A DNA stretch of 24,654 bases, taken from a virus. The stretch is taken from positions 1-24,654 of the IMG/VR virus record IMGVR_UViG_3300045454_000111; one strand, given 5' to 3'. The position numbers and the translations under genes are program-made. The notes below the pieces were generated by a model. That model was given only the letters and a program-made list of their open reading frames with translations. It did not search any database and was not told the DNA's origin. This document shows positions 3,236-24,654 of the stretch, one piece after another. How positions within the stretch are numbered: the stretch's first letter is position 1; every line of letters begins with the position of its first letter.

Positions 3236-3679
3236 TCAGGCGGTCCCGGGAAGCGTCGTGGGCCAGGCATCCTGAGTCGTGTAGCTCCACTCCTGCGTCG
3301 AGGGGACAGTCCCCTCCGTCAGGTCGAGCTGAATTCGACCATCCGCGAGGACGTTCATAATCGGTGTGGTGTTGCTGTTTCCCCAGACCCGGAAGGTCCG
3401 GTCCTGATAGGGGCGGAACCCGACCGGGAGTGCGGCGGCGAGGATGTTCTGCAGTCCGGCGGGGCCAGCGAGACCGTTGAATCGAAGCTGGATGTTCCGT
3501 CCGTTACGTGCGACGTGCAGGGTTCCGGTGATGCCGGAGGCGAGACCGGCACCGCTGAGGTTGCGCCAGCCCGTACCGACCAGGATCTGGTTGAGCGCCT
3601 CCTCCATCTGGTTGATGTTCGGGATGAAGTTCGGGTCGCCTTCAGCATGGTTCGTGGGGCGAGGAAGTGTGACAGCCAT
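3236..3679 (-). CDS. Short receptor-binding-like tail protein
   Basis: A 147-residue protein ending the tail operon. Residues 1-40 (through NQMEEALNQILVGTGW) look like a short helical anchor. The rest is predicted beta-sandwich, with the motif LPVGFRP near residue 85 and DGRI near residue 113. These motifs recur in the distal head domains of siphophage receptor-binding proteins and fibre tips. The start at 3679 has AGGA 5-6 nt upstream. Its place directly after the rhamnosidase-like gene suggests the two act together at the tail tip in host recognition. No close family is recognised, so the role comes from motifs and location. Confidence 0.6.
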   Translation of the reverse strand: MAVTLPRPTNHAEGDPNFIPNINQMEEALNQILVGTGWRNLSGAGLASGITGTLHVARNGRNIQLRFNGLAGPAGLQNILAAALPVGFRPYQDRTFRVWGNSNTTPIMNVLADGRIQLDLTEGTVPSTQEWSYTTQDAWPTTLPGTA

Positions 3680-3693
3680 GATGGTCCTGCTTT

Positions 3694-6135
3694 CTATCTC
3701 GGGAGGGAGTGCGTGCCGGACGCGAGCGGCACGCCCGCGTGTGTGGCGGTGAGTCCGGGTGGGATGGTGATGGTTGTTTCGGTGGCGTTCCAGGACACCG
3801 TGACGGGGCCGCGCGGCGTGCGCACCGTTGCTGCGCAGGACGCGAGCGCAGCCGGATAGTGCGGGTCGATGAGAACCTCATCCGGCCCGAGAACCCGAAT
3901 CCCCGCCAGCACGCCCAGGAACCATGCGACATACGAACTGTGCATGTGATGCGACAGGGTGCGTTGCGCCGCTATGTCGCCATATCCGTTCCAGGTCGTG
4001 GTCGCGCCGAGCGTCGCCCACTGGCCCCATGACGGATGCACGGTGACCTGCGTTACCGCGAACGCCAGATCCACGTACCCCTGCTCGGTGAGCGTCCAGA
4101 GCAACTCCTCCTCGGAGAAGATCCCCAGGTTGAGCCGGTTCGACCTTGCTTCGAGATCAGCAACGAGGCGTGCGGCGACCGCCGCTTCCTTCCCCTCTGG
4201 CACCAGCCCGTGGGCGAGGGCGAGGACGTTCGGCCCCTGCCTGTAGTCGCCCGTGTAGGTGGCCTGCGGTCGGAACGTGTCCACGCCGTCGAACAGCCGA
4301 GCCGTGTATGCCGCCCGAAGCGAAGCCGCCCGTGATCGGTAGGCGGACGACGGCTCACCGAGCGCGTCGCACATGTCCGCGAATGCCTCCGTCTGGAGGA
4401 TCACGAACAGGGTTGCCGAGTAGTCCTTGCCGCCTTCGTTGCCGTTGCCGAGCGGGGACGACCAGTCTCCGAACACCGAATCCCAGACCGTCTTCGTGGA
4501 TGCGCCGAGCGTGTTCTCGATGTGACGCTTCATCGCTGGGAAGTGCTGGCCGATGACCGTGCGGTCGCCGGTGAGCTTCCAGATGCGGTGCGCGATCAGT
4601 AGGAACGCCGACGACCACTCGGGCGCTCGCCCGTACCCGTACCAGCCGGACGAGGGGACGATGAATGGGAGGACTCCCGCGGCGTCCGTCGAGTCCGCCA
4701 TGTCCGTCAGCCACTTCCTCAGCAGAGGATGCGCATCTGATGCAGCCAGGAGAGAACCGGCGGTGACGTTCGTGTCGCCCAGCCACCCGATCTTCTCGTG
4801 CGTCGGGGTGTCGGACACGATGCCGTGCGCGTTGATCCGCTGCGACTGTCGGGCCATCCCCCAGAGCTGGTTCAGCAGCGCGTTCGAGGACGTGAACGAG
4901 GCCATGTCCGGCACGTCCGAGTACACCGGGACCGCGACGACGTTCGACGGCTGCGCCGGGGCCTCGAAGAGCACGTACCGGAAGCCCTTGTACGAGAAGC
5001 GCGGTTCGTACTCCACCGCCGATCCATTGAGGATGACGTGATCGGTCTGCATGACCCCGACGACGGCGGGGTTGTCGACGTTCGGCTCGCCCGTGGACGC
5101 CTTGATCTTCTCCCCGTACACGACCCGCACGTCCGTGCCCGCTGTGCCGGTGAGAGTCGCGGAGACCCATCCGGCCGTCACGATGCCGAAGTCATACAGG
5201 TAGCGGCCACCGGTCAGTTCCGTGACCGACACGGGCTCGATCGGCGCGTGCCGAACAATCGGAGGCTGCCGCATCGCCTGCACCCGCGCGGCCGGCGCGG
5301 GCCAGACGGTCGCGGCCGTCCACCCGGTGGACGTGTCGATGCGCGTGTCGATGATCTCCCCGAGGTAGATCGAATCCGCGGTGATCTGCGAGGCTCGCGT
5401 CTCCCACGAACCATCTGTGACGACCCGTACATCACCCGCGGGGGTTTCGGCCAGCAGCACCATCATCGTCCGCGGCGCGCCGTGCCACGGGGCCGTGTTC
5501 CAGTCCCAGTCGGTGTCCGTGGTCACGCCATAGAACCCGCGGCCGAGGATCGCGCTGAGCGTGTTCGAGCCCGCATTCAGCAGCCCGGTCACGTCGTGCG
5601 CGGCGTACTGCACCCGCTTGTTGTAGACGGTGTAGCCCGGTTCCAGAACGCGCGTGTCCGACACCGGCACGCCGTTCACGGACGCATCAACGTACCCGGC
5701 TCCCGCGACGAACAGGAACGCTCGCGTCGCGGCCGCCGGGAGCGTGAAGGTCCGGCGGACCAGCGGGGCCGCGTCAACATCAGGGCCACCGATCCACTGT
5801 GCGCCCGCCCAGTCGAACTGCGAGAACAGCCCGGTCGTGAAGACGATGGACGCCCAATCGGAGGCGACATTCGCCGCGTCCCACACACGCACCCGCAGGT
5901 GGTAGGTCGTGGCAGACAGCATCGGGAACGTCAGCTCGATGTCCTGCACGGTCGAGGTGACCTTGCCGGTCGCCAGCACGTCCGCGCCAGCCTCTGTGGT
6001 GCCGACCTGAATCTCGTAGGCAGTCTGCGCGTCCCCCGGCGTTGCGGACAGGAGGGTCCATCGGAGCATCGGCGTGGGGTCGTCCATGCCGATGAGGTTC
6101 GCGTTGCCGGGGAACGTCAGAGAATCAACCTGCAC
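3694..6135 (-). CDS. GH78 alpha-L-rhamnosidase-like tail protein, possible depolymerase
   Basis: An 813-residue protein with full GH78 architecture. An N-terminal Ig-like domain spans about 1-102 (LRWTLLS...TAYEIQV). A Bac_rhamnosid_N-type beta domain follows (about 110-245, with GYVDASVNG and LEPGYTVYNKRV). A concanavalin-like domain covers about 300-405 (YDFGIVTAGW, SYKGFRYV), then an (alpha/alpha)6 catalytic barrel (about 410-745) and a C-terminal beta-sandwich. In the barrel, Asp442, Glu447 and Asp454 of DTPTHEKIGWLGD match the D-x4-E-x6-D motif holding the general acid. In the later GATTxWE motif the usual catalytic-base Glu appears as Asn716 (GATTTWNGYG), so it may have altered activity or only bind rhamnose glycans. 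It starts at GTG 6135, overlapping the collagen-like fibre gene by 11 bp with a weak ribosome site. The GH78 fold begins near residue 10, leaving no obvious virion anchor. In this position it probably recognises or trims rhamnose-containing wall polysaccharide. Confidence 0.85.
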   Translation of the reverse strand: MQVDSLTFPGNANLIGMDDPTPMLRWTLLSATPGDAQTAYEIQVGTTEAGADVLATGKVTSTVQDIELTFPMLSATTYHLRVRVWDAANVASDWASIVFTTGLFSQFDWAGAQWIGGPDVDAAPLVRRTFTLPAAATRAFLFVAGAGYVDASVNGVPVSDTRVLEPGYTVYNKRVQYAAHDVTGLLNAGSNTLSAILGRGFYGVTTDTDWDWNTAPWHGAPRTMMVLLAETPAGDVRVVTDGSWETRASQITADSIYLGEIIDTRIDTSTGWTAATVWPAPAARVQAMRQPPIVRHAPIEPVSVTELTGGRYLYDFGIVTAGWVSATLTGTAGTDVRVVYGEKIKASTGEPNVDNPAVVGVMQTDHVILNGSAVEYEPRFSYKGFRYVLFEAPAQPSNVVAVPVYSDVPDMASFTSSNALLNQLWGMARQSQRINAHGIVSDTPTHEKIGWLGDTNVTAGSLLAASDAHPLLRKWLTDMADSTDAAGVLPFIVPSSGWYGYGRAPEWSSAFLLIAHRIWKLTGDRTVIGQHFPAMKRHIENTLGASTKTVWDSVFGDWSSPLGNGNEGGKDYSATLFVILQTEAFADMCDALGEPSSAYRSRAASLRAAYTARLFDGVDTFRPQATYTGDYRQGPNVLALAHGLVPEGKEAAVAARLVADLEARSNRLNLGIFSEEELLWTLTEQGYVDLAFAVTQVTVHPSWGQWATLGATTTWNGYGDIAAQRTLSHHMHSSYVAWFLGVLAGIRVLGPDEVLIDPHYPAALASCAATVRTPRGPVTVSWNATETTITIPPGLTATHAGVPLASGTHSLPR

Positions 6136-6967
6136 TAGCGATCACCGCCCCATCGAGATTGACCCAAGGCGCGGAACCGCCCGAGAGGATCTGTTCGACC
6201 ACGAGACCCGTCGCGGTCGTCAGCAGAAGAACGACACCAGTCGGTGTCTGCACGGTGACGCGCTTGTCTGCCGCCCAGACGCCGGGCGCTGCCGTCGCCA
6301 GCAGAACGCCGGGCTCGATGTCCGCGGCACCCGCGGCGATCTGCCCAGACAGGAACACTGCTTCGCCAGCGGAATACGCTGCCGGGAACTGTCCCCATGC
6401 GGTTGGCGTGAAGCCGGTGGCGATCGACATCGGCACCGCGACAGCCCCGCCGCCGGGCGCGTACCCGTTCGGCATGAGCGCGAGCGGAATCCGGCCCTCA
6501 TCGTCGAGCCGGGGGACGTACTCCCACACAGGGTACGCGGTGCTCACCGGATACGTCCCGGGGTAGATGGACGGATACACCGTCGTCGGCTCGTCCCATC
6601 CGAGCCGAACTGTGTTGTCCTCCGCCTCGGGGATTACGCCGCCTTCGCTCGTGATGACCACCGACTCCACAGCGGTCTCGATCTTCTCGGCCACTTCGGG
6701 GCCGTCCAGGATCGCGTCGATGGCGGGCGCGACGGCCCCATAAATGGCGGCCGATATTTGGGACGGCGAAAGCCGCCCGGTCTCGACGGTGTCCTGAACT
6801 TCCTTTGCGGCCGCGACCTCGAGCACCGCTGCGTGCGTGGCGGTGTCGTCCTCGCGAACATAGGTAGCCACGGCCTCGTCGTTCTCCACGGCGTTCACGC
6901 CAGGGAGGCCGCGGGGGCCCGTCTCGCCCTTCGGGCCCTTGAGGTTGGCGATCGGAACACGTGCCAT
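6125..6967 (-). CDS. Collagen-like tail fibre protein
   Basis: A 280-residue protein. Residues about 11-23 are Gly-X-Y triplets (GPKGETGPRGLPG), the collagen-like motif that trimerises many phage fibres. A helical acidic region follows (about 25-115), then a proline/tyrosine-rich stretch (TVYPSIYPGTYP, about 128-140) and a beta-rich C-terminal part (about 165-280). The start at 6967 is 2 bp after the previous stop with little Shine-Dalgarno sequence, so it is probably translated by coupling. The stop overlaps the rhamnosidase-like gene by 11 bp, suggesting linked assembly. Likely a homotrimeric fibre or appendage; its ligand is unknown. Confidence 0.75.
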   Translation of the reverse strand: MARVPIANLKGPKGETGPRGLPGVNAVENDEAVATYVREDDTATHAAVLEVAAAKEVQDTVETGRLSPSQISAAIYGAVAPAIDAILDGPEVAEKIETAVESVVITSEGGVIPEAEDNTVRLGWDEPTTVYPSIYPGTYPVSTAYPVWEYVPRLDDEGRIPLALMPNGYAPGGGAVAVPMSIATGFTPTAWGQFPAAYSAGEAVFLSGQIAAGAADIEPGVLLATAAPGVWAADKRVTVQTPTGVVLLLTTATGLVVEQILSGGSAPWVNLDGAVIASAG

Positions 6968-6969
6968 CG

Positions 6970-7458
6970 TCAGCTCACAATCTCGAGAATTCCAGTCCCG
7001 CTGGAGGCGGGATCGTCAGGGTCGCCGGGCGGCTGCCCAGGACCGGGCGCGTTGAGGTACCAGCCGCGGTAGCCCGGCGGCGGCGGGTCGAGGGACACGA
7101 GCACGCTGTAGATCGACAGGTCGACCGGTGCGAGCTCCGAGATCGGCCCTCCGTTCGGGTACGGGTTGAAGGTCCACGACCACTCCGCGTACCCATACGC
7201 CCATCGCTCGGGGCCGTCGTCGGTGTTGATCAGCCACCGCAGGAACGGCGTGTAGATCGTCCACGGCTCGGCGAGGAGCTCGCATGTAAAGGCCCCGGTC
7301 TCCGGGTTCAGAGTGGCGATCGCCTCGACGTCTGCTGCGAGACCGCCGTCGACGAGGTTCGACCGCGACGGGCGGAAGCCGAAGACGGGGCGCCGCTCGG
7401 CGGGGATCGGCGCGCCCGTGTGATCCCACACGTTGCCGGTGACGGTGACGAGAGCCAT
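6970..7458 (-). CDS. Minor tail protein of unknown function
   Basis: A 162-residue protein starting MALVTVTGNVWDH at 7458, with AAAGGAG upstream. The N-terminal 85 residues resemble a prealbumin- or Ig-like beta domain (VTGNVWDHTGAPIP...LNPETGAFTCELL). The C-terminal part is rich in Pro, Gly and Trp and ends in a flexible PGPGQPPGDPDDP segment. Similar small proteins sit between the tail-tip hydrolase and the fibres in actinophages, where they may connect or bind carbohydrate. The assignment rests on operon position more than on a recognised family. Confidence 0.6.
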   Translation of the reverse strand: MALVTVTGNVWDHTGAPIPAERRPVFGFRPSRSNLVDGGLAADVEAIATLNPETGAFTCELLAEPWTIYTPFLRWLINTDDGPERWAYGYAEWSWTFNPYPNGGPISELAPVDLSIYSVLVSLDPPPPGYRGWYLNAPGPGQPPGDPDDPASSGTGILEIVS

Positions 7459-7468
7459 CGGGTCTCCT

Positions 7469-8530
7469 TTAGGCGTTCTGGTAGGTGGCCATGAAGTCGC
7501 GGGGGTTGATCGGCACACCGTTCACGTGGGTCTCCAGGTGCAGGTGGTTCCCGAAGCTGTTGCCGGTGTTGCCGATGCCGCCGAGCGTCTGCCCCTTGCC
7601 CACCTGCTGGCCGAGCGAGACAGCCGGCGGCTGGTACATGTGGGCGTACAGGGTGCGGAGGTTGTTGCCGAGCACAGTGCCGTGGTCGACCACGACACCG
7701 TTGCCCCAGCCGTGCCCCTGCCCCTCGGCGAGGATCCGAGACACAGTCCCGCTCCCCATGCACGGGATCGGGGTGCCCTCGATGTTCGCGATGCCGAGGC
7801 CGAAGTCGATGCCCTCATGGCTGGGGCGATCAGGCGGCCGGAACTCCGAGGTGACGAGGTCGAGCGAGAACGGCCACTGGAAGCGGGATCCGCCCGGGCC
7901 GCCGCCGGAGCCACCCTGGGTCCGGTAGAGGCGGTTGTCGGACCCGAGGACGAGGTACTCCCCCGTCATGCCCGACGGGAGTTGCGGGATCAGGCCACGA
8001 TTCACCAGGATGTGGCCGCTGTCGTAGAACGCGATAGCCGTGTTGCCGTCGACGACGATCCCCACGGAGCCGCCCTCGATGCTGACCCGGGAACCGCCCG
8101 GGCCGACGAGCTGGATGCCGCCGGAAGCGACGTTCACCTCGATGTCGCCGGGGCCGTCCACGCGTACCGCGTTGCTCGACACCACGACGCCGGCCTCGCC
8201 GGGGCCGTCGATAGAGGTGGTTGACGCGTTCGCGCTCAGCACGTTGTGATCCGCGTACCGGACAACGAGGTAGCCGCCCTCCCCGAAGATCAGTCCTTCC
8301 GTGCCGACCGCGATCTGCGCCTGGCCACCGAACTGCCCGAGCGTCACCGGCTCGTCACCGCCGACCATGATCGTGCCCGGGGCTTCCACCCTGATGCCCT
8401 CGGCTGCGCGGACGGTCATGCCGCCCCGGTCGATTGACGACGCCTCGAGGATGGACCCCGACTCGAGGCGGGTGATCCTGCGCTTCAGGTCCACCAGCTC
8501 GGCGTTGAAGTCGCTCAGGTCGTCGACCAT
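7469..8530 (-). CDS. Tail protein with C-terminal M23 peptidase domain
   Basis: A 353-residue protein. Residues 1-25 form a short coiled coil (LSDFNAELVDLKRRITRLES). Residues about 30-205 are repetitive glycine-rich beta structure. A Gly/Pro linker (TQGGSGGGPGG) leads to an M23/lysostaphin-type metallopeptidase at about 215-350. Its zinc and catalytic residues are present: His238 and Asp242 in HEGID, His297 in YAHM, and His329/His331 in HLHLE. The fold cuts peptide cross-bridges of peptidoglycan. In a tail-tip operon it probably opens a local hole in the wall during DNA entry, separate from the endolysin used for exit. The ATG at 8530 directly follows the stop of the previous gene. Confidence 0.88.
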   Translation of the reverse strand: MVDDLSDFNAELVDLKRRITRLESGSILEASSIDRGGMTVRAAEGIRVEAPGTIMVGGDEPVTLGQFGGQAQIAVGTEGLIFGEGGYLVVRYADHNVLSANASTTSIDGPGEAGVVVSSNAVRVDGPGDIEVNVASGGIQLVGPGGSRVSIEGGSVGIVVDGNTAIAFYDSGHILVNRGLIPQLPSGMTGEYLVLGSDNRLYRTQGGSGGGPGGSRFQWPFSLDLVTSEFRPPDRPSHEGIDFGLGIANIEGTPIPCMGSGTVSRILAEGQGHGWGNGVVVDHGTVLGNNLRTLYAHMYQPPAVSLGQQVGKGQTLGGIGNTGNSFGNHLHLETHVNGVPINPRDFMATYQNA

Positions 8531-9580
8531 CTACTGCACCTCCGGCTTCACGTTCACCGTCATGTCTCCGGAGAGCGCGATGATGCGCCGCTGGTAGACA
8601 CCGCTCGGGATCCACGGGTCGTCTCGCACGTCGAGTCGCACGATCCGGCCCGGCTGCACCATCTGCGGGGTGACCGGGTCCTCGAGGCGCACGCCGAACG
8701 ACCACTGCTCGGTCACATCGGCCGCTTCCGCCATCGCGTAGTTCGCCTGCGCCTGCAGGACGATCGGGATGTCGATGTCCTTCGCCTCGCGCTTCTCGTC
8801 GCGCGCGGGGATCCCGTATGGGTTGCGAGCGGAACCGGCGACGAGCATGTTCGCCCCGGTGCCCTTCCCGGTGACGATCACGCCCGTCGCCTGCGACGCC
8901 CCGTCCTCCACGACGCTGAGACCCTTGACGACGGACTGCGACGCGTTGACCGTCAGATCTGTGGCGCCCCGTTCGATCCGCTCGGCCACGTCCACCGCCC
9001 ACCGGAGCGACCCGCCAGGCGTCAGATAGGGGCGGAAGTCAATCTCCACCCCCGTCTTCTCGAGCTCCTCGAACAGGTCCGCAGCGGTCACCGTCTCCCA
9101 GTACCGGACGTCGCGGGAGTAGCCGCCTGACCCGTCCGAGGGCAGGTCGATCGGAAGGGCGTGCGCCGAGGTGATGCCCGTCGCGCGGACGAGGATCGCG
9201 CGGGCCGCGCCCGATGGGGACCGCCCCTGGATATTCAGGTTCCACATCGGCCCGTAGCTCAGCGCCCCGCCGGTCGGGCGCTTCGAGAACAGCGACCGGA
9301 GCTCGCTGAGCGACGCCTGCACCGTGCCGGCGTCACGGTCGTACACCCGGCGTGTGATCAGCCCGGCGTACGCGACGAACGTCCCCCACCGGACCACGAG
9401 CGTCCGCGACCATGCCGTCAGCAGCGACCGCGGATCCGAAATCGACGTGCCGTCGGCGAGCTTGAACGTCGCCGTACCGGTGCCGGTCCCGGTCAGGCGC
9501 CGCGCCCACGGGCACGCCGCCGGGTAAACCTGCTGCAGCGGCGTCCCCGACTGCGTGTCGTGGATCCAGAACTGCCACAT
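8531..9580 (-). CDS. Baseplate hub / Tal-like minor tail protein (gp27-like)
   Basis: A 349-residue protein directly downstream of the distal tail gene. It begins MWQFWIHDT and has the mixed beta-barrel pattern of siphophage Tal/gp27-like hub proteins. A central segment WETVTAADLFEELEKTGVEIDFRP (around 157-180) recalls the ReqiPepy6 gp37-like family of actinophage tail proteins; that match is from memory of the motif and is unconfirmed. Such proteins form a trimeric hub closing the tail tube and carry the fibres. The start at 9580 has AGGGGG upstream. The position between Dit and the M23 tail lysin is the standard one for the hub. Confidence 0.7.
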   Translation of the reverse strand: MWQFWIHDTQSGTPLQQVYPAACPWARRLTGTGTGTATFKLADGTSISDPRSLLTAWSRTLVVRWGTFVAYAGLITRRVYDRDAGTVQASLSELRSLFSKRPTGGALSYGPMWNLNIQGRSPSGAARAILVRATGITSAHALPIDLPSDGSGGYSRDVRYWETVTAADLFEELEKTGVEIDFRPYLTPGGSLRWAVDVAERIERGATDLTVNASQSVVKGLSVVEDGASQATGVIVTGKGTGANMLVAGSARNPYGIPARDEKREAKDIDIPIVLQAQANYAMAEAADVTEQWSFGVRLEDPVTPQMVQPGRIVRLDVRDDPWIPSGVYQRRIIALSGDMTVNVKPEVQ

Positions 9581-9592
9581 GGGCGCCCCCTA

Positions 9593-10384
9593 TCAGGCGA
9601 ACGTGTCGACCACGCGCACCGTCATCGACCCGGCCCCGCCGGTCCCGGTCAGCGACATGGGTTCATCCGCCGACCCGGGCGGAATGTGGATGACCTCGGC
9701 CGCGGCGACAGCGCCGGTCAGTAGCGCACCGTTTCGGTACAGCCAGCCGGTGCGCATGTCGATGCGGTCCGTCTGCCCCGTTGCCAGCGGCGCATCCACG
9801 ATGAACGCCGTCGACCCGTACGCGACGACGTATCCCTGTGGGAACATGCCCGTGACGAGCACCTCTGGGATCGCGGGCATCGTGCCGTAGTGGAAGGGAA
9901 CGACCTGGGCGCCCGTGAACTCCCGGGCCTTCCCATACCGACGCGGGTCGGGCGCCCAGAACTGCACCTGATAGTCGGCTACCGACGGGTCCTCACCGTG
10001 GATGCGCACCCCTGGGGCGCCGGCCCGGCGCACGCGCGCCCACAGCGGCTCGAGCGCGTCCTGCACGGTGAGCGTGTCAGCGCCGCCGTCGGCGAGCAGT
10101 CCGTTCAGCTGGCGGACCGCACGTTGCAGGCCCGCCGGCGAGTCGCCGAGGATCACCCCCGTGATGCTCACCACGCGAGCGGTGAGGTACCCCGGTGCGT
10201 CGAACGCGCCGTGCTGCAGCGGACGGTCCTCCTCGTCCCGGCGCATGTCCGGCGCCTCATCCCAGCCCGTCATCTCCTGGATCACGAAGTAGGGACCGTC
10301 CCCTGCTCGCACGTGGATGCCGCGGAAGGTGAGTCCGCCGATGTCCACGCGGAGCCTTCCGAGCTGCGCGACGCTGAACGGCAT
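9593..10384 (-). CDS. Distal tail protein (Dit-like)
   Basis: A 263-residue protein following the tape measure, the standard place for Dit, which forms the hexameric ring at the tail end. Early residues include a Dit-like beta-strand pattern (RVDIGGLTFRG). The middle contains LQRAVRQLNGLLADGG and QVQFWAPDPRRYG, the 'F.A.DP..Y' type motif common in Dit proteins. The C-terminal half looks like a galectin/CBM-like sandwich. The ATG at 10384 is preferred because GGGAGG lies 4 nt upstream and it overlaps the tape-measure stop (TGATG). In-frame ATGs at 10387 and 10405 have worse ribosome-site spacing. Confidence 0.8.
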   Translation of the reverse strand: MPFSVAQLGRLRVDIGGLTFRGIHVRAGDGPYFVIQEMTGWDEAPDMRRDEEDRPLQHGAFDAPGYLTARVVSITGVILGDSPAGLQRAVRQLNGLLADGGADTLTVQDALEPLWARVRRAGAPGVRIHGEDPSVADYQVQFWAPDPRRYGKAREFTGAQVVPFHYGTMPAIPEVLVTGMFPQGYVVAYGSTAFIVDAPLATGQTDRIDMRTGWLYRNGALLTGAVAAAEVIHIPPGSADEPMSLTGTGGAGSMTVRVVDTFA

Positions 10385-11967
10385 CATGCCTCCCTGAGTG
10401 CCCATGCGAGCCGCTCGGCAGCGACGCGCCCCACGGTCGCCTCATCCATGCCCGGCGCTCCGTAGACCTTCATCTCGATGGGGCGCCCGCCACCGGACCG
10501 GGATCCGACCAAGCCCTCCTCGAGCGCCCGGTTCATCAGACCCGTGTCGACCACGGTCTCGGGTCGGCCCGCCTCCGCGAGGATCGCGGCCGTGCCACCG
10601 CGCCTCGGGAGGACCGTCGCGCCATCCGCGAGCCGCGGCAGCTCCACATGGGGCATCGTGTCGAAGGTGATGCCGACGTGACCGCCGATGTCGTTCAGGC
10701 CACCGACCAGCCCGTTGATGAGGTCGATCGCGCCGTTGACACCGCCCTCGATCCAGCCGAGCACGGTGTTCCACGCGTCCCGAACCACGCCCGGGATCGT
10801 CTCGCCCCAGAACGTGTCCCACGCCGCTGCGATGCCCGACCACGTGTTGTCCCACCAGGTGGTGAATCCCGCGGTTGCCTCCTCGATCCAGGTGAGGAAC
10901 CCGCTCCAGATGTCGGTCACGAACGCGACCACGTGGTCCCAGTTCGCGATCAGCGCGACGACCGCCGCGGCGAGCGCGACCAGGCCGAGCACCACCCAAG
11001 TGATCGGGTTCGCCAGCAGCGCGGCCGTCGACGCCCAGATCGACGCGGACCAGGCGATGAACGCCGCCACCAGCGTGATGCCGATGACCGAGCCGATAGC
11101 GACCAGCACGGGCTGGTTCTCGGACAGCCACGTGAACGCCGTCGCGAGCGCGCCCGTGATCGCCTGCAGCGCTGGCATGGCCGCCGACATGATCGTCTCG
11201 CCGAGCCCACCCAGCGAGTGGCCCAGCAGGTCCATCTGCCCCTGGTAGGTCTCCGCGTACGCGGCGCCCGACCCGCCGAACTGGCTGTTCAGCTCGCCGA
11301 GGATGATCTTCTGGGCCTCCATCGTGTCGCCCGACTCGACCAGCGACTCGATCATCGCCTTCTGGTCGTCGGTGAACTGGATGCCCACTCGGGACAGCGC
11401 CGAGATGCCCGCGATCGGGTCGTTGAGCGCCTTGCCGAGCTGGATGGCGGCGGACTGTGGGTCGGTGCCCATGGCGCGCGCCATGTCCACCAGCGAGGTC
11501 GTCGCCTGGTTGAAGATGTCGTTGCCCTCGCCGACCCCGTTCTGGATGTTCTTGAAGGTCAGCAGCAGGTTGGCGCCCTCCTGGATCGCCTCCGACTCGG
11601 TCGCCGTGACCGACTCGAGACTGTCGGCGAGATTGCGCACCTCGTCCGCGGAGACGTTCGCCGCGCCGCCGGTCGACTCGATCACCGAGCGGGTCTGGGC
11701 GCCGATCGTCTCGATCCGAGCGAGCCCGTTGATCGACTCGGTGACGAAGCTGCCGATCTGGTTGGCGACGAACATCCCGCCGAGAGTCGTGGCCAGCCCA
11801 CCGACGCCCTTCAGCACACCCGACGACCACTTCTTGCCCGTGTTGGTGGCGGCCGACTCGACGCCCTTGTCCGCGCCGGCGATCTCCTTCGTGATCTGAT
11901 CCTGCGCGCCCTCGAACGACGGCACGAGCCGGATCCACGCGGTCGCGAGCTCGACACCAGTAGCCAT
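10384..11967 (-). CDS. Tape measure protein
   Basis: A 527-residue protein that spans the tail tube during assembly and sets its length. The N-terminal half contains a PhageMin-type tail segment (VRNLADSLESVTATESEAIQEGANLL, about 110-135, then LVDMARAMGTD). The middle has a strongly hydrophobic region (about 265-345, with VLVAIGSVIGITLVAAFI and WVVLGLVALAAAVVALIA) and Trp-rich repeats (TTWWDNTWSGIAAAWDTFW), probably used in membrane passage. It is short for a tape measure; at about 1.5 angstrom per residue it predicts a tail near 80 nm. The ATG at 11967 follows GAGAGGCGGG; a GTG one codon upstream is possible. It sits right after the chaperone frameshift genes, as expected. Confidence 0.92.
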   Translation of the reverse strand: MATGVELATAWIRLVPSFEGAQDQITKEIAGADKGVESAATNTGKKWSSGVLKGVGGLATTLGGMFVANQIGSFVTESINGLARIETIGAQTRSVIESTGGAANVSADEVRNLADSLESVTATESEAIQEGANLLLTFKNIQNGVGEGNDIFNQATTSLVDMARAMGTDPQSAAIQLGKALNDPIAGISALSRVGIQFTDDQKAMIESLVESGDTMEAQKIILGELNSQFGGSGAAYAETYQGQMDLLGHSLGGLGETIMSAAMPALQAITGALATAFTWLSENQPVLVAIGSVIGITLVAAFIAWSASIWASTAALLANPITWVVLGLVALAAAVVALIANWDHVVAFVTDIWSGFLTWIEEATAGFTTWWDNTWSGIAAAWDTFWGETIPGVVRDAWNTVLGWIEGGVNGAIDLINGLVGGLNDIGGHVGITFDTMPHVELPRLADGATVLPRRGGTAAILAEAGRPETVVDTGLMNRALEEGLVGSRSGGGRPIEMKVYGAPGMDEATVGRVAAERLAWALREA

Positions 11968-11979
11968 CACACCCGCCTC

Positions 11980-22246: not shown

Positions 22247-22324
22247 TCTGGGCGGACTGCTCCACCATCTACGTTTCACTGTGCCACGAATGCAGGATTT
22301 GCATATCTGGATTCGGGTGGATCT

Positions 22325-22522
22325 TCACCGGCGTGTCGGGACACCCGCCGGGCGTCCCCGCTTCAGCTCCTCACCCAGCCGGGCAGCCGCTTTCGACAGG
22401 ACGTGCACCTTCCCGCCGATCATCCGCGAGGCGATGCGCTCCGTCCGTACCCACTCGTAGACCGTCCGCTTCGACCTGCCCGCGACGAGAGCGGCCGCCT
22501 CCACCGTGATCCACTCCTTCAC
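22325..22522 (-). CDS. Excisionase / AlpA-like winged helix-turn-helix protein
   Basis: A 65-residue protein matching the HTH_17/excisionase pattern: WITVEAAALVAGRSKRTVYEWVRTERIASRMIGGKVHVLS, in which a first helix, recognition helix and beta wing can be traced. The GTG at 22522 overlaps the previous stop as GTGA. The C-terminus is basic (ELKRGRPAGVPTRR). Proteins of this type either act as recombination directionality factors with an integrase or as transcription regulators of the AlpA kind. No integrase is in the window, so which role applies is unknown. It is the last gene of the right-hand operon, next to the packaging genes. Confidence 0.8.
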   Translation of the reverse strand: MKEWITVEAAALVAGRSKRTVYEWVRTERIASRMIGGKVHVLSKAAARLGEELKRGRPAGVPTRR

Positions 22523-22845
22523 GACTCGTCTCCCTTCTCGGTGAGCGCGGCTTCCAGGACGACACGGGCCGCCCACATGTACTGCTCGCGCTCGGACTCT
22601 TCCCAGTCGTCAAGGTCGACGCCCACGTCCTCCATCGACTTCCGCCAGTAGGCGCGCGCCGCCCGCTCGACCATCTCCTCGGTCACCGTCTCCCTTGTGG
22701 CGGACGCGGGGCCGGTCGCGTGCGCCTGTCGGTAGTGGGCGTCGATGTCCCACAGGAGGACACCGCACTCGGCGCATGCCAAGAGTTGCACCTCGGGCGC
22801 ACCTGTTCGCACCGCCTCGGCGCGGGCCTCCTGATCGATGCTCAC
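22519..22845 (-). CDS. Zinc-finger-like small phage protein
   Basis: A 108-residue protein. Residues 24-42 form a C2H2-like finger (CAECGVLLWDIDAHYRQAH). The second half is an acidic helical segment (MVERAARAYWRKSMEDVGVDLDDWEESEREQYMWAARVVLEAAL, residues 58 on), a layout often seen in actinophage early proteins of unknown function. The GTG at 22845 is preferred because AAGGAG lies 8-9 nt upstream and it overlaps the previous stop (GTGA); longer in-frame starts lack a ribosome site. Its stop in turn overlaps the HTH gene. A nucleic-acid or protein-binding role is plausible. Confidence 0.75.
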   Translation of the reverse strand: MSIDQEARAEAVRTGAPEVQLLACAECGVLLWDIDAHYRQAHATGPASATRETVTEEMVERAARAYWRKSMEDVGVDLDDWEESEREQYMWAARVVLEAALTEKGDES

Positions 22846-23087
22846 GATCCCTGCTCCTTCCCCTGCTCCCTGATCCGCCGCGCGATCGACCGCGGGACCC
22901 ACGGGTGAATCGTGTGCTTCTCGTGACTCTCCGCGATCTGGGCGCATCGTTCGCGTTCCTCCTGGCGGACGGCCTCGATCACCGGCATGATGCGGTCGGC
23001 CAGGAGATAGTCGCTCTCGCGGATCTCCCATGTGCCGGGGCTGAGGAAATCGCGGACGACCCGGGCAAGTTCCTCGCGCTCGCTCAT
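22842..23087 (-). CDS. Small helical phage protein with EERERC motif
   Basis: An 81-residue protein starting MSEREELARVVRDFL. It is almost wholly helical and contains PVIEAVRQEERERCAQIAES (about 35-54), a stretch found in many small actinophage proteins. The ATG at 23087 overlaps the previous stop (ATGA). Its N-terminus and the (A)xRxEERxR motif resemble neighbouring proteins in the same operon, which suggests a family created by duplication. No biochemical function is known. Confidence 0.72.
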   Translation of the reverse strand: MSEREELARVVRDFLSPGTWEIRESDYLLADRIMPVIEAVRQEERERCAQIAESHEKHTIHPWVPRSIARRIREQGKEQGS

Positions 23088-23335
23088 TTCTGCCCCCTGA
23101 TCCCGTCGAGGATCCGAAGCGACCGTTCCGTGAACACGTCCTGGCGCACGAGGCTGTCCTGCGCTTCGTCGATCGTTCGTTCGCGCTCCTCGGCACGGAC
23201 GGCCTCGATCAGAGGCGGCAGGTACTTGTCGATCGCCTCTTCCAGCGCCTCGTGCCAGACACGCGGGTTGTGTCGCATGTAGTTTCGGGCGTCGATCTTC
23301 ATGCCCTCGATCAGCGGCTCGTCACGCTCGGTCAT
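23084..23335 (-). CDS. Small helical phage protein beginning MTERD
   Basis: An 83-residue protein starting MTERDEPLIEGMKIDARNYM. The centre (PPLIEAVRAEERERTIDEAQ, about 40-59) matches the shared helix motif of its neighbours. The ATG at 23335 is chosen because GGAGGTGG lies about 6 nt upstream and the first 12 nt belong to a repeated junction sequence. It overlaps the end of the previous gene by 14 bp, and its stop overlaps the next start (ATGA). The frame is open much further upstream but only as a shadow of the neighbouring gene. Function unknown. Confidence 0.72.
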   Translation of the reverse strand: MTERDEPLIEGMKIDARNYMRHNPRVWHEALEEAIDKYLPPLIEAVRAEERERTIDEAQDSLVRQDVFTERSLRILDGIRGQK

Positions 23336-23349
23336 CGGGAACCACCTCC
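23319..23349 (-). repeat. Repeated gene-junction sequence, copy 1 (31 bp)
   Basis: This 31-bp block is identical to 24021-24051. On the minus strand it holds GGAGGTGG, an ATG, and the codons MTERD for the downstream gene. In another frame it encodes the last residues EVVPDDRA and the stop of the upstream gene. A 20-bp part of it recurs at 23737-23756 and a 17-bp part at 24375-24391. Confidence 0.85.
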
Positions 23350-23753
23350 TCCAGGGCGAGCAAGGCGCGGGCGTGATCGGCGTACCGCGCCTGGTCCTCC
23401 GGCGCAGTCTCCTCAGCCCACACGTCAGCGTCGGCGTCCATCCGCCCGTAGAGGTCGTAGGTCGCGAGCGCCGCCGCCACGCGTTGCACAGCCTCGTCCG
23501 CGGGCGTCTCCCGCTCGGTAGGCGACTGTAGGTGCTCGACGGTGTCCCAGTCGCGCGACTGGAAGGCCTCCTCCAGTTCGTCCTCCCGCTCCCTGATCCG
23601 GGCGCGCTCCTCACGGCGGATGGCCTCATCGTGCGCGGACAGCCAGCGGTCGAACTCGATGACACGTTCGTCCCAGTTCGGACCCGAGCCGAGCGCGCCG
23701 TAGCACATGCGCACGTCGTCCAGGCTCGGCGTGTACTCGTCACGCTCGGTCAT
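23322..23753 (-). CDS. Acidic helical phage protein beginning MTERD, partner of the cut gene at the right edge
   Basis: A 143-residue protein starting MTERDEYTPSLDDVRMCYG at 23753, where the ATG overlaps the previous stop (ATGA). Residues 41-65 form a charged helix (HDEAIRREERARIREREDELEEAF), followed by QSRDWDTVEHLQSP, then a second helical half that ends EEVVPDDRA. Residues 46-86 are encoded by DNA identical to that at the right edge of the window, while the C-terminal half differs. No known domain is recognised. Its last codons double as the ribosome site and start of the next gene. Confidence 0.72.
   Translation of the reverse strand: MTERDEYTPSLDDVRMCYGALGSGPNWDERVIEFDRWLSAHDEAIRREERARIREREDELEEAFQSRDWDTVEHLQSPTERETPADEAVQRVAAALATYDLYGRMDADADVWAEETAPEDQARYADHARALLALEEVVPDDRA
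23493..23618 (-). repeat. 126-bp exact direct repeat, inner copy
   Basis: The sequence is identical, base for base, to 24529-24654 (offset 1036 bp). It lies wholly inside a coding gene and encodes its middle portion. It diverges abruptly at 23492. The other end cannot be fixed because the second copy reaches the window edge. Confidence 0.92.
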
Positions 23754-24037
23754 CGGTCGTCCCCGTATTCCAGATCCAGGAACCCGATCACACCGCGGCG
23801 CAGACTCTCGTCCAGCGCCGCTCGATGCTCCGGCTTCGTCATGTCGAACGGCTCCCACCAGTCGTCGGTGCCCGGCTTCGGGGCCATGATCGTGCCGCGT
23901 TCGCTCTCGCCGAGGATGTCGTGCGAGAACTCGTCGGCGTAGAACTCATCGCGCTCGAAGATCCGCGAGAGGCTGGCCTTCACCCAGGCCTGCGACTCCG
24001 CAAAGGTCACCGTGCTCAGGTCGTCACGCTCGGTCAT
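23750..24037 (-). CDS. Small acidic phage protein beginning MTERD
   Basis: A 95-residue protein starting MTERDDLSTVTFAESQAW. It has a helical first half, a middle rich in Trp and Asp (GTDDWWEPFDMTKPEHRAAL, about 56-75) and a C-terminal helix. The ATG at 24037 has GGAGGTGG about 6 nt upstream within a repeated junction sequence. It overlaps the end of the previous gene by 14 bp and ends in an ATGA overlap with the next. Apart from the first five residues it does not resemble its neighbours. Function unknown. Confidence 0.7.
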   Translation of the reverse strand: MTERDDLSTVTFAESQAWVKASLSRIFERDEFYADEFSHDILGESERGTIMAPKPGTDDWWEPFDMTKPEHRAALDESLRRGVIGFLDLEYGDDR

Positions 24038-24051
24038 CGGGAACCACCTCC
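24021..24051 (-). repeat. Repeated gene-junction sequence, copy 2 (31 bp)
   Basis: Identical to 23319-23349. Again the minus strand carries the end of one gene (EVVPDDRA and stop), a GGAGGTGG ribosome site and the ATG plus MTERD codons of the next. The shared 17-bp core is also present at 24375-24391, before the third gene of this operon. Confidence 0.85.
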
Positions 24052-24377
24052 AAGTCCTTCATGCGGCGCTCGCGCCACCGCTCGTGATTGATCCGCAGTC
24101 GACGGTTCAGCTCGGCAGCATGCTCGTCCTCGTCTTCGCGCTCCTCTGCCCACTCGGCAACCGCGTCCGCGGAGATCAGCCCCCCATCGTCGTAGCCGTC
24201 CAGCCACGCCCTGTCCGTCGCCACGGCGCACGGCGTCAGGTGCGACTTCCAGACGCCGACCGATCCGGCATCGAACGTCACGGCCCGCTCGTATGTCTCG
24301 CCCGGCTCGATGGGCCAGCCGCACACCTCGCAGGCGTGTCGCTTCCGTGCCTTCACGTCAGCACGCGTCGTGTCCAT
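24024..24377 (-). CDS. Zinc-ribbon-like phage protein
   Basis: A 117-residue protein. The N-terminal part has a CxxC knuckle with a preceding His (RKRHACEVCGWPIEPGETYERAV, about 11-33) and a later HLTPCA; this resembles a common actinophage family with 'kC..Cg..I.pGe.Y'. A charged helical second half follows (AEWAEEREDEDEHAAELNRRL) and the protein ends LEVVPDDRA. The ATG at 24377 has GGAGGTGG about 6 nt upstream; longer in-frame readings upstream are shadows of the next gene. It probably binds zinc through CxxC and nearby His/Cys residues. No specific function can be assigned. Confidence 0.75.
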   Translation of the reverse strand: MDTTRADVKARKRHACEVCGWPIEPGETYERAVTFDAGSVGVWKSHLTPCAVATDRAWLDGYDDGGLISADAVAEWAEEREDEDEHAAELNRRLRINHERWRERRMKDLEVVPDDRA

Positions 24378-24654
24378 CGGGAACCACCTCCGTCCAGGGG
24401 CCAGCCTTGCGGCGGCGCATGAGGCGTCGTCCGTACTTCCGAGAGATGAGGCGAGCCACCTCTTCACTCGTGAATGGGTTGATCTGCGAATCGTGCTGAC
24501 GTGACTCTTCGGGAGCCGACCACTCCCACTCGTCCGCGGGCGTCTCCCGCTCGGTAGGCGACTGTAGGTGCTCGACGGTGTCCCAGTCGCGCGACTGGAA
24601 GGCCTCCTCCAGTTCGTCCTCCCGCTCCCTGATCCGGGCGCGCTCCTCACGGCG
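24358..24654 (-). CDS. Partial gene at window edge: helical phage protein, C-terminal 98 residues
   Basis: An open frame runs from the window edge to a TGA at 24358 and overlaps the next gene's start by 20 bp. No start is visible, so the gene is cut by the window. The first part (RREERARIREREDELEEAF, then QSRDWDTVEHLQSPTERETPADE) is encoded by DNA identical to part of the gene at 23322-23753. From there it switches to an unrelated ending (WEWSAPEESRQHDSQ, then EEVARLISRKYGRRLMRRRK) that closes with EVVPDGHDAC. The ending is basic where its paralogue's is acidic. It looks like a mosaic paralogue; function unknown. Confidence 0.65.
   Translation of the reverse strand, partial: RREERARIREREDELEEAFQSRDWDTVEHLQSPTERETPADEWEWSAPEESRQHDSQINPFTSEEVARLISRKYGRRLMRRRKAGPWTEVVPDGHDAC
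24529..24654 (-). repeat. 126-bp exact direct repeat, outer copy at window edge
   Basis: Identical to 23493-23618 and still matching at the last base of the window, so the true repeat may be longer. It encodes the start of the visible part of the cut gene. An exact match of this size means a recent duplication, gene conversion, or an assembly effect at a contig end. Confidence 0.9.

Follow-up and report, generated by a model that had tools for sequence, protein, structure and literature searches.

Background

The closest described relatives of the protein treated here are the GH78 alpha-L-rhamnosidases of known structure, SaRha78A (3w5m/3w5n), DtRha (6i60) and AtRha (6gsz). In SaRha78A, Glu636 is the general acid and Glu895 the general base (PMC7263609), and the base motif of the family reads GATTLWERW (PMC12838782). 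The protein shares their domain order, barrel, acid and sugar pocket, but it has an Asn where they have the base Glu and two glutamates, E675 and E676, at helix 10, it is encoded in a phage tail operon, and it lacks the CBM67-type domain found in SaRha78A. Two other kinds of enzymes are worth comparing. For the inverting fucosidases of GH95 and GH139, as well as for GH45 and GH43_24, an Asn base activated by a nearby Asp has been proposed (PMC12282258), and our protein may work in a similar way to the fucosidases, although they belong to other families and have their Asn at another position. Tailspike endorhamnosidases of the P22/Sf6 type are phage tail proteins that act on rhamnose-containing glycans, which would be the likeness here, but they are internally cutting beta-helix trimers, whereas our protein has an exo-type (alpha/alpha)6 barrel fold.

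The tail operon

The window, by which we mean the whole stretch of DNA that was analysed, corresponds to a whole virus record of IMG/VR, 24,654 bases long. Its minus strand carries a complete HK97-type siphophage module, with head genes for terminase, portal, protease, major capsid protein and connectors, and tail genes for tail tube, chaperone, tape measure, a Dit-like protein and tail-tip proteins, several of which find their best likeness in phages of Arthrobacter, Microbacterium, Gordonia and Curtobacterium. This set of genes, from terminase to tail tip, bears out the siphophage tail operon in which the initial annotation had placed the GH78-type gene. The tail-tip genes are followed by one for a protein with an M23 peptidase domain, one for a small protein and one for a protein of 280 aa that begins like collagen, and then by those for the GH78-type protein, a protein like minor tail proteins and an amidase endolysin. 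The genes around the GH78-type gene are:

10384..11970, minus strand: tape measure protein
9593..10405, minus strand: Dit-like minor tail protein (phrog_5577 / phrog_33)
8531..9580, minus strand: tail-tip protein (phrog_1885 minor tail protein)
7469..8530, minus strand: tail-operon protein with a C-terminal M23 peptidase domain
6970..7518, minus strand: small tail-operon protein, no family
6125..6967, minus strand: upstream tail-adaptor candidate, 280 aa, collagen-like N-terminus, C-terminal domain at 6128-6499
3694..6135, minus strand: GH78-type protein, 813 aa, GTG start
3236..3679, minus strand: protein downstream of GH78, C-terminus resembling phage minor tail proteins (phrog_6614, phrog_3971)

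The M23 protein (7469-8530) is likely an enzyme for penetration of the cell wall and is distinct from the endolysin at 1898-2950. At the other end of the window (22300-24654) there are several small ORFs with common repeated motifs (MTERDE..., ...RAEERER), visible as short direct repeats, which by these motifs are a local family of small proteins with no assigned function. The final 126 bases of the record (24529-24654) are an exact copy of 23493-23618; the assembly probably broke off at this repeat, in which case the right end is not the natural end of the genome.

Fold of the GH78-type protein

All five GH78 domains are matched in Pfam, namely Ig_Rha78A_N (4-104), Bac_rhamnosid_N (136-305), Bac_rhamnosid (307-392), Bac_rhamnosid6H (410-739, with 7e-61) and Bac_rhamnosid_C (753-798), so the full domain set that had been read from the letters is there, and together with the similarity over the full length of the sequence it places the protein in GH78. 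An earlier AF2 model built from 5 sequences reached a pLDDT of 63, with active-site loops too poorly predicted to be of use, and was superseded by a second model of the catalytic domain, with pLDDT 78 and pTM 0.82. The superposition on known structures that had been suggested for this protein gave a GH78 barrel, with Z 42.9 to 6i60, 42.1 to the rhamnose complex 3w5n and about 42 to 6gsz, at an rmsd of 2.4-2.5 over about 395 residues. The predicted structure thus has the (alpha/alpha)6 catalytic barrel of the family, although confidence in the base loop is low (pLDDT about 50), and the barrel and beta-sandwich fold is not the trimeric parallel beta-helix of the P22 type.

An active site with one exception

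Residue equivalences were taken from a phmmer alignment of the protein to SaRha78A (3w5m). The acid E447 corresponds to E636, and D442, W451 and D454 to D630, W640 and D643; further into the pocket W507, W558 and H729 correspond to W695, W747 and H916. In the same residue-by-residue alignment N716 stands opposite E895. Both parts of the site as first read, the D-x4-E-x6-D arrangement of Asp442, Glu447 and Asp454 and the altered base Asn716 in GATTTWN, are thus confirmed. The features that matter for the argument are:

4774..4812, minus strand: general-acid motif DTPTHEKIGWLGD, residues 442-454 (D442, E447, W451, D454)
4618..4620, minus strand: Glu506, clade-specific, adjoining the conserved pocket residue Trp507
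4108..4113, minus strand: Glu675-Glu676 pair, clade-specific, on the first turn of inner helix 10; a candidate to replace the base or to activate Asn716
3988..4008, minus strand: base motif GATTTWN, residues 710-716, with Asn in place of the base Glu (N716 codon 3988-3990)
3985..3990, minus strand: Asn716-Gly717 dipeptide, in both phage proteins (see below), with G717 clade-specific and mostly R elsewhere
3949..3951, minus strand: His729, the pocket residue His916 of SaRha78A, kept

Every other sugar-pocket residue that was checked, the general acid included, is kept, and from KoRha it is known that these residues grip the sugar (PMC4690510). The protein has the general acid of GH78, but since it has Asn where the Glu of GATTxWE should be, we file it as a GH78-derived variant and not as a canonical rhamnosidase.

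The substitution is inherited

Scanning a single genome for each species gave one close relative, a GH78 protein of Pseudarthrobacter polychromogenes (L020, NZ_BMKU01000019.1) that is 48% identical over its full length and sits in a prophage together with tail and lysis genes. Its base motif is GATTTWNGWG. We compared both phage proteins in one alignment with 52 further GH78 rows of bacterial or viral origin, 51 of which reach the base column. The acid column holds Glu in 52/52 of them, and the positions of D442-x4-E447-x6-D454 hold D, E and D in 52/52; the base column holds Glu in 51/51 and Asn only in the two phage proteins, and those GH78 genes of P. polychromogenes itself that were aligned also retain the Glu. 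In a tree built without the base column and the columns of 675-676, the phage proteins form a clade with 100/100 support, nested within an actinobacterial group, and a single change from Glu to Asn is enough to explain the tree. The codon of N716 is AAC in the window and in the prophage, and because the two genomes are independent a sequencing error is very unlikely; we reject error or chance as the source of Asn716.

D442, E447, W451, D454, W507, W558 and H729 are kept in both phage proteins despite their 48% identity, as are 58 of the 77 family-conserved columns, and dN between the two is 0.53 against a dS of 1.28 (NG86), the latter being near saturation. The pair share two departures from near-invariant columns, N716 and T726, while none of 206 other pairs at 40-60% identity shares more than one. 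Going beyond the altered base that the initial annotation had claimed, we conclude from the alignment and the tree that the swap has become fixed in a phage lineage of actinobacterial GH78 origin and is passed on within it. Judging from a partial sampling of about 1,200 actinobacterial genomes, where the search for further members gave the prophage only, this clade is known from two members only.

A candidate adaptor

The GH78 fold had been noted to begin near the N-terminus, with no evident virion anchor; the first part stands, with a start at about residue 4 and no anchor of the protein's own, while the gene upstream provides a co-conserved candidate for an adaptor. The C-terminal approximately 125 residues of its product are similar (36% identity over 125 aa) to the protein encoded just ahead of the prophage GH78; the N-termini of the two upstream proteins and the types of the tails are unlike. 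In both elements the end of the upstream gene runs into the GH78 start, with an overlap of 11 nt in the window. The domain was absent from the rest of 774 genomes sampled, and the entire upstream protein had no match among GenBank phages. The C-terminal domain is the likely answer to the missing anchor, and we read adaptor and GH78 as a cassette that may have moved between tails. The prophage GH78 has the same Asn-Gly at the base site, the same E-E pair and the homologous upstream domain as the protein in the window, but it lies in a differently built, Gp37-type tail operon, after an endolysin gene and with another protein downstream. Judging from the order of the genes and from the adaptor domain conserved alongside it, the GH78-type protein would have a role in the tail.

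Other viral GH78 proteins

Virus contigs in IMG/VR hold three more GH78 genes, which differ from ours in that the Glu base is kept and in that they branch elsewhere in the tree:

L086, 1467-4124: GH78 with intact Glu base, tail-fibre-like ORF directly after it
L087, 559-2976: GH78 with intact Glu base, tail-fibre-like ORF directly after it
L084, 10334-11827: GH78 with intact Glu base

The unnamed viral protein A0A1P8VV88 in BFVD (833 aa; TM 0.87 and 34% identity to the catalytic-domain model by structure alignment) looks like a further viral GH78, and no matching phage record was found for it. GH78 in viruses is thus rare, but not unique. Among 50,697 GenBank phage records there was no convincing GH78 phage, and a literature search, with subscription papers outside its coverage, gave no report of GH78 in a phage tail.

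Scans of IMG/VR for the base motif GATTxWNG matched glycosyltransferases and unrelated proteins and no GH78; the seven matches to an acid-motif pattern were all due to chance, a second motif pattern matched four GH78 proteins, every one of them with the Glu, and the pattern GWLGDxNV found no GH78. Six GenBank matches labelled 'Bacteriophage sp.' (MT835686, MT835628, MT835809, MT836800, MT837039 and MT836649) were rejected as phage relatives, since in the five that were examined (MT837039 was left out) the neighbours are bacterial carbohydrate-use or metabolic genes, such as RhaA, GH106, GH2, GH3 and a sugar transporter. The six appear to be mislabelled bacterial contigs.

A rebuilt base, or a lost one?

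If the base is gone, something else could have taken over its task. The two phage proteins have 60 residues in common that are rare elsewhere in GH78, and among those in the barrel 410, 506, 567, 675 and 676 are acidic. Where other GH78 proteins read T-P or T-K in the GFLGTP loop, the phage pair has E675-E676, and in no other protein compared are these positions acidic. Inner helix 10 comprises residues 672-684 of the model, and since the known active-site residues sit just ahead of inner helices 2, 4, 6, 8 and 12, at that end of the barrel, topology predicts that the pair should face the same pocket, beside the Asn716 loop. They are candidates for a replacement base or for an activator of Asn716, although, being just 2 of 60, they may be there by coincidence. 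Neither this pair nor the shared Asn716-Gly717 dipeptide, both of them relevant to the chemistry, figured in the initial annotation. The predicted arrangement, with Asn in place of the base Glu and acidic residues peculiar to the clade on an adjacent inner helix, may suit an Asn base of the GH95 and GH139 type. A division of the base role between a pair of glutamates is known from GH130, and base mutants of inverting enzymes are not always inactive (PMC4599007).

The explanation that we favour, even if it falls just short of an even chance, is that the protein hydrolyses rhamnosides by means of a rebuilt base while attached to the tail. An actinobacterial GH78 alpha-L-rhamnosidase would have been the ancestor, and its descendant would have become attached to a phage tail. 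In one phage lineage the base Glu (E895 of SaRha78A) would then have given way to Asn716, with no loss of the acid Glu447 or of the sugar pocket, and the activation of water would have been rebuilt around Glu675/Glu676, which start inner helix 10 in the ring position beside the Asn716 loop and would act as the base itself or as activator of Asn716 in the manner proposed for GH95 and GH139. The upstream gene product would fix the protein to the tail through its C-terminal domain, and at adsorption the protein would bind terminal alpha-L-rhamnose of the host wall glycan and trim it. That the acid motif and the pocket are retained speaks for an enzyme still active on terminal rhamnose. The activity, the role of E675/E676, the location in the virion and the substrate are all what we infer for the protein, and an exo-acting enzyme would be unusual as a tail depolymerase. 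As for the chemistry taken by itself, we consider a rebuilt base possible and somewhat less than evenly probable, be it that E675-E676 replace the base or activate Asn716 as an imidic-acid base, or that Asn716-Gly717 deamidates post-translationally and makes a self-timed tail enzyme.

The most serious rival is that hydrolysis was lost together with the base, leaving a catalytically dead pseudoenzyme whose intact pocket grips terminal rhamnose as a receptor-binding lectin. We regard this as possible, if less so than the rebuilt hydrolase. A Glu that is invariant in 51/51 other proteins is missing, all checked residues that contact rhamnose are kept except the base, and a tail operon is where receptor binding is needed; but Glu447 and its full motif are kept, which a pure binder with no need to donate protons could do without, there are new acidic residues at the face of the pocket, and some activity is possible in base mutants of inverting enzymes (PMC4599007).

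That last point can also be turned into another proposal, in which the protein is an ordinary, if weak, alpha-L-rhamnosidase that does not strictly depend on its base and tolerates Asn716, with no novelty in the chemistry. Mutants in the candidate base of several inverting enzymes are indeed not fully inactive (PMC4599007), but a dispensable base is difficult to reconcile with its invariance in the compared rows (51/51), and we think this unlikely. More doubtful still is that Asn716-Gly717 deamidates after folding, so that Asp or isoAsp arises at the base position and the enzyme switches on over time. Asn-Gly is the dipeptide most prone to deamidation, and it is present in both phage proteins with a Gly717 that is specific to the clade. 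There is also a viral precedent at a glycan-binding site, Asn373 of the norovirus P-domain (PMC6428809), but there are two sequences only, and Asp is one methylene shorter than the Glu of GH78. The least probable reading, a rhamnoside phosphorylase or transglycosylase in which phosphate or another sugar attacks, draws on GH94 and GH65 phosphorylases, which have the same barrel fold in the structure comparison and work without a base, and is made very unlikely by the newcomers at the pocket face, which are acidic and not basic, and by the lack of an evident use for a phosphorylase on a virion.

Significance

As the base Glu is invariant in all other GH78 proteins that were compared, a lineage in which it alone of the site was lost offers a test, made by nature, of how an inverting glycosidase can be rebuilt or turned into a lectin. 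The GH78 protein in the window further hints that rhamnose on the walls of actinobacteria serves phages as a receptor, and rhamnan has been reported in the walls of some Curtobacterium (PMC9862828).
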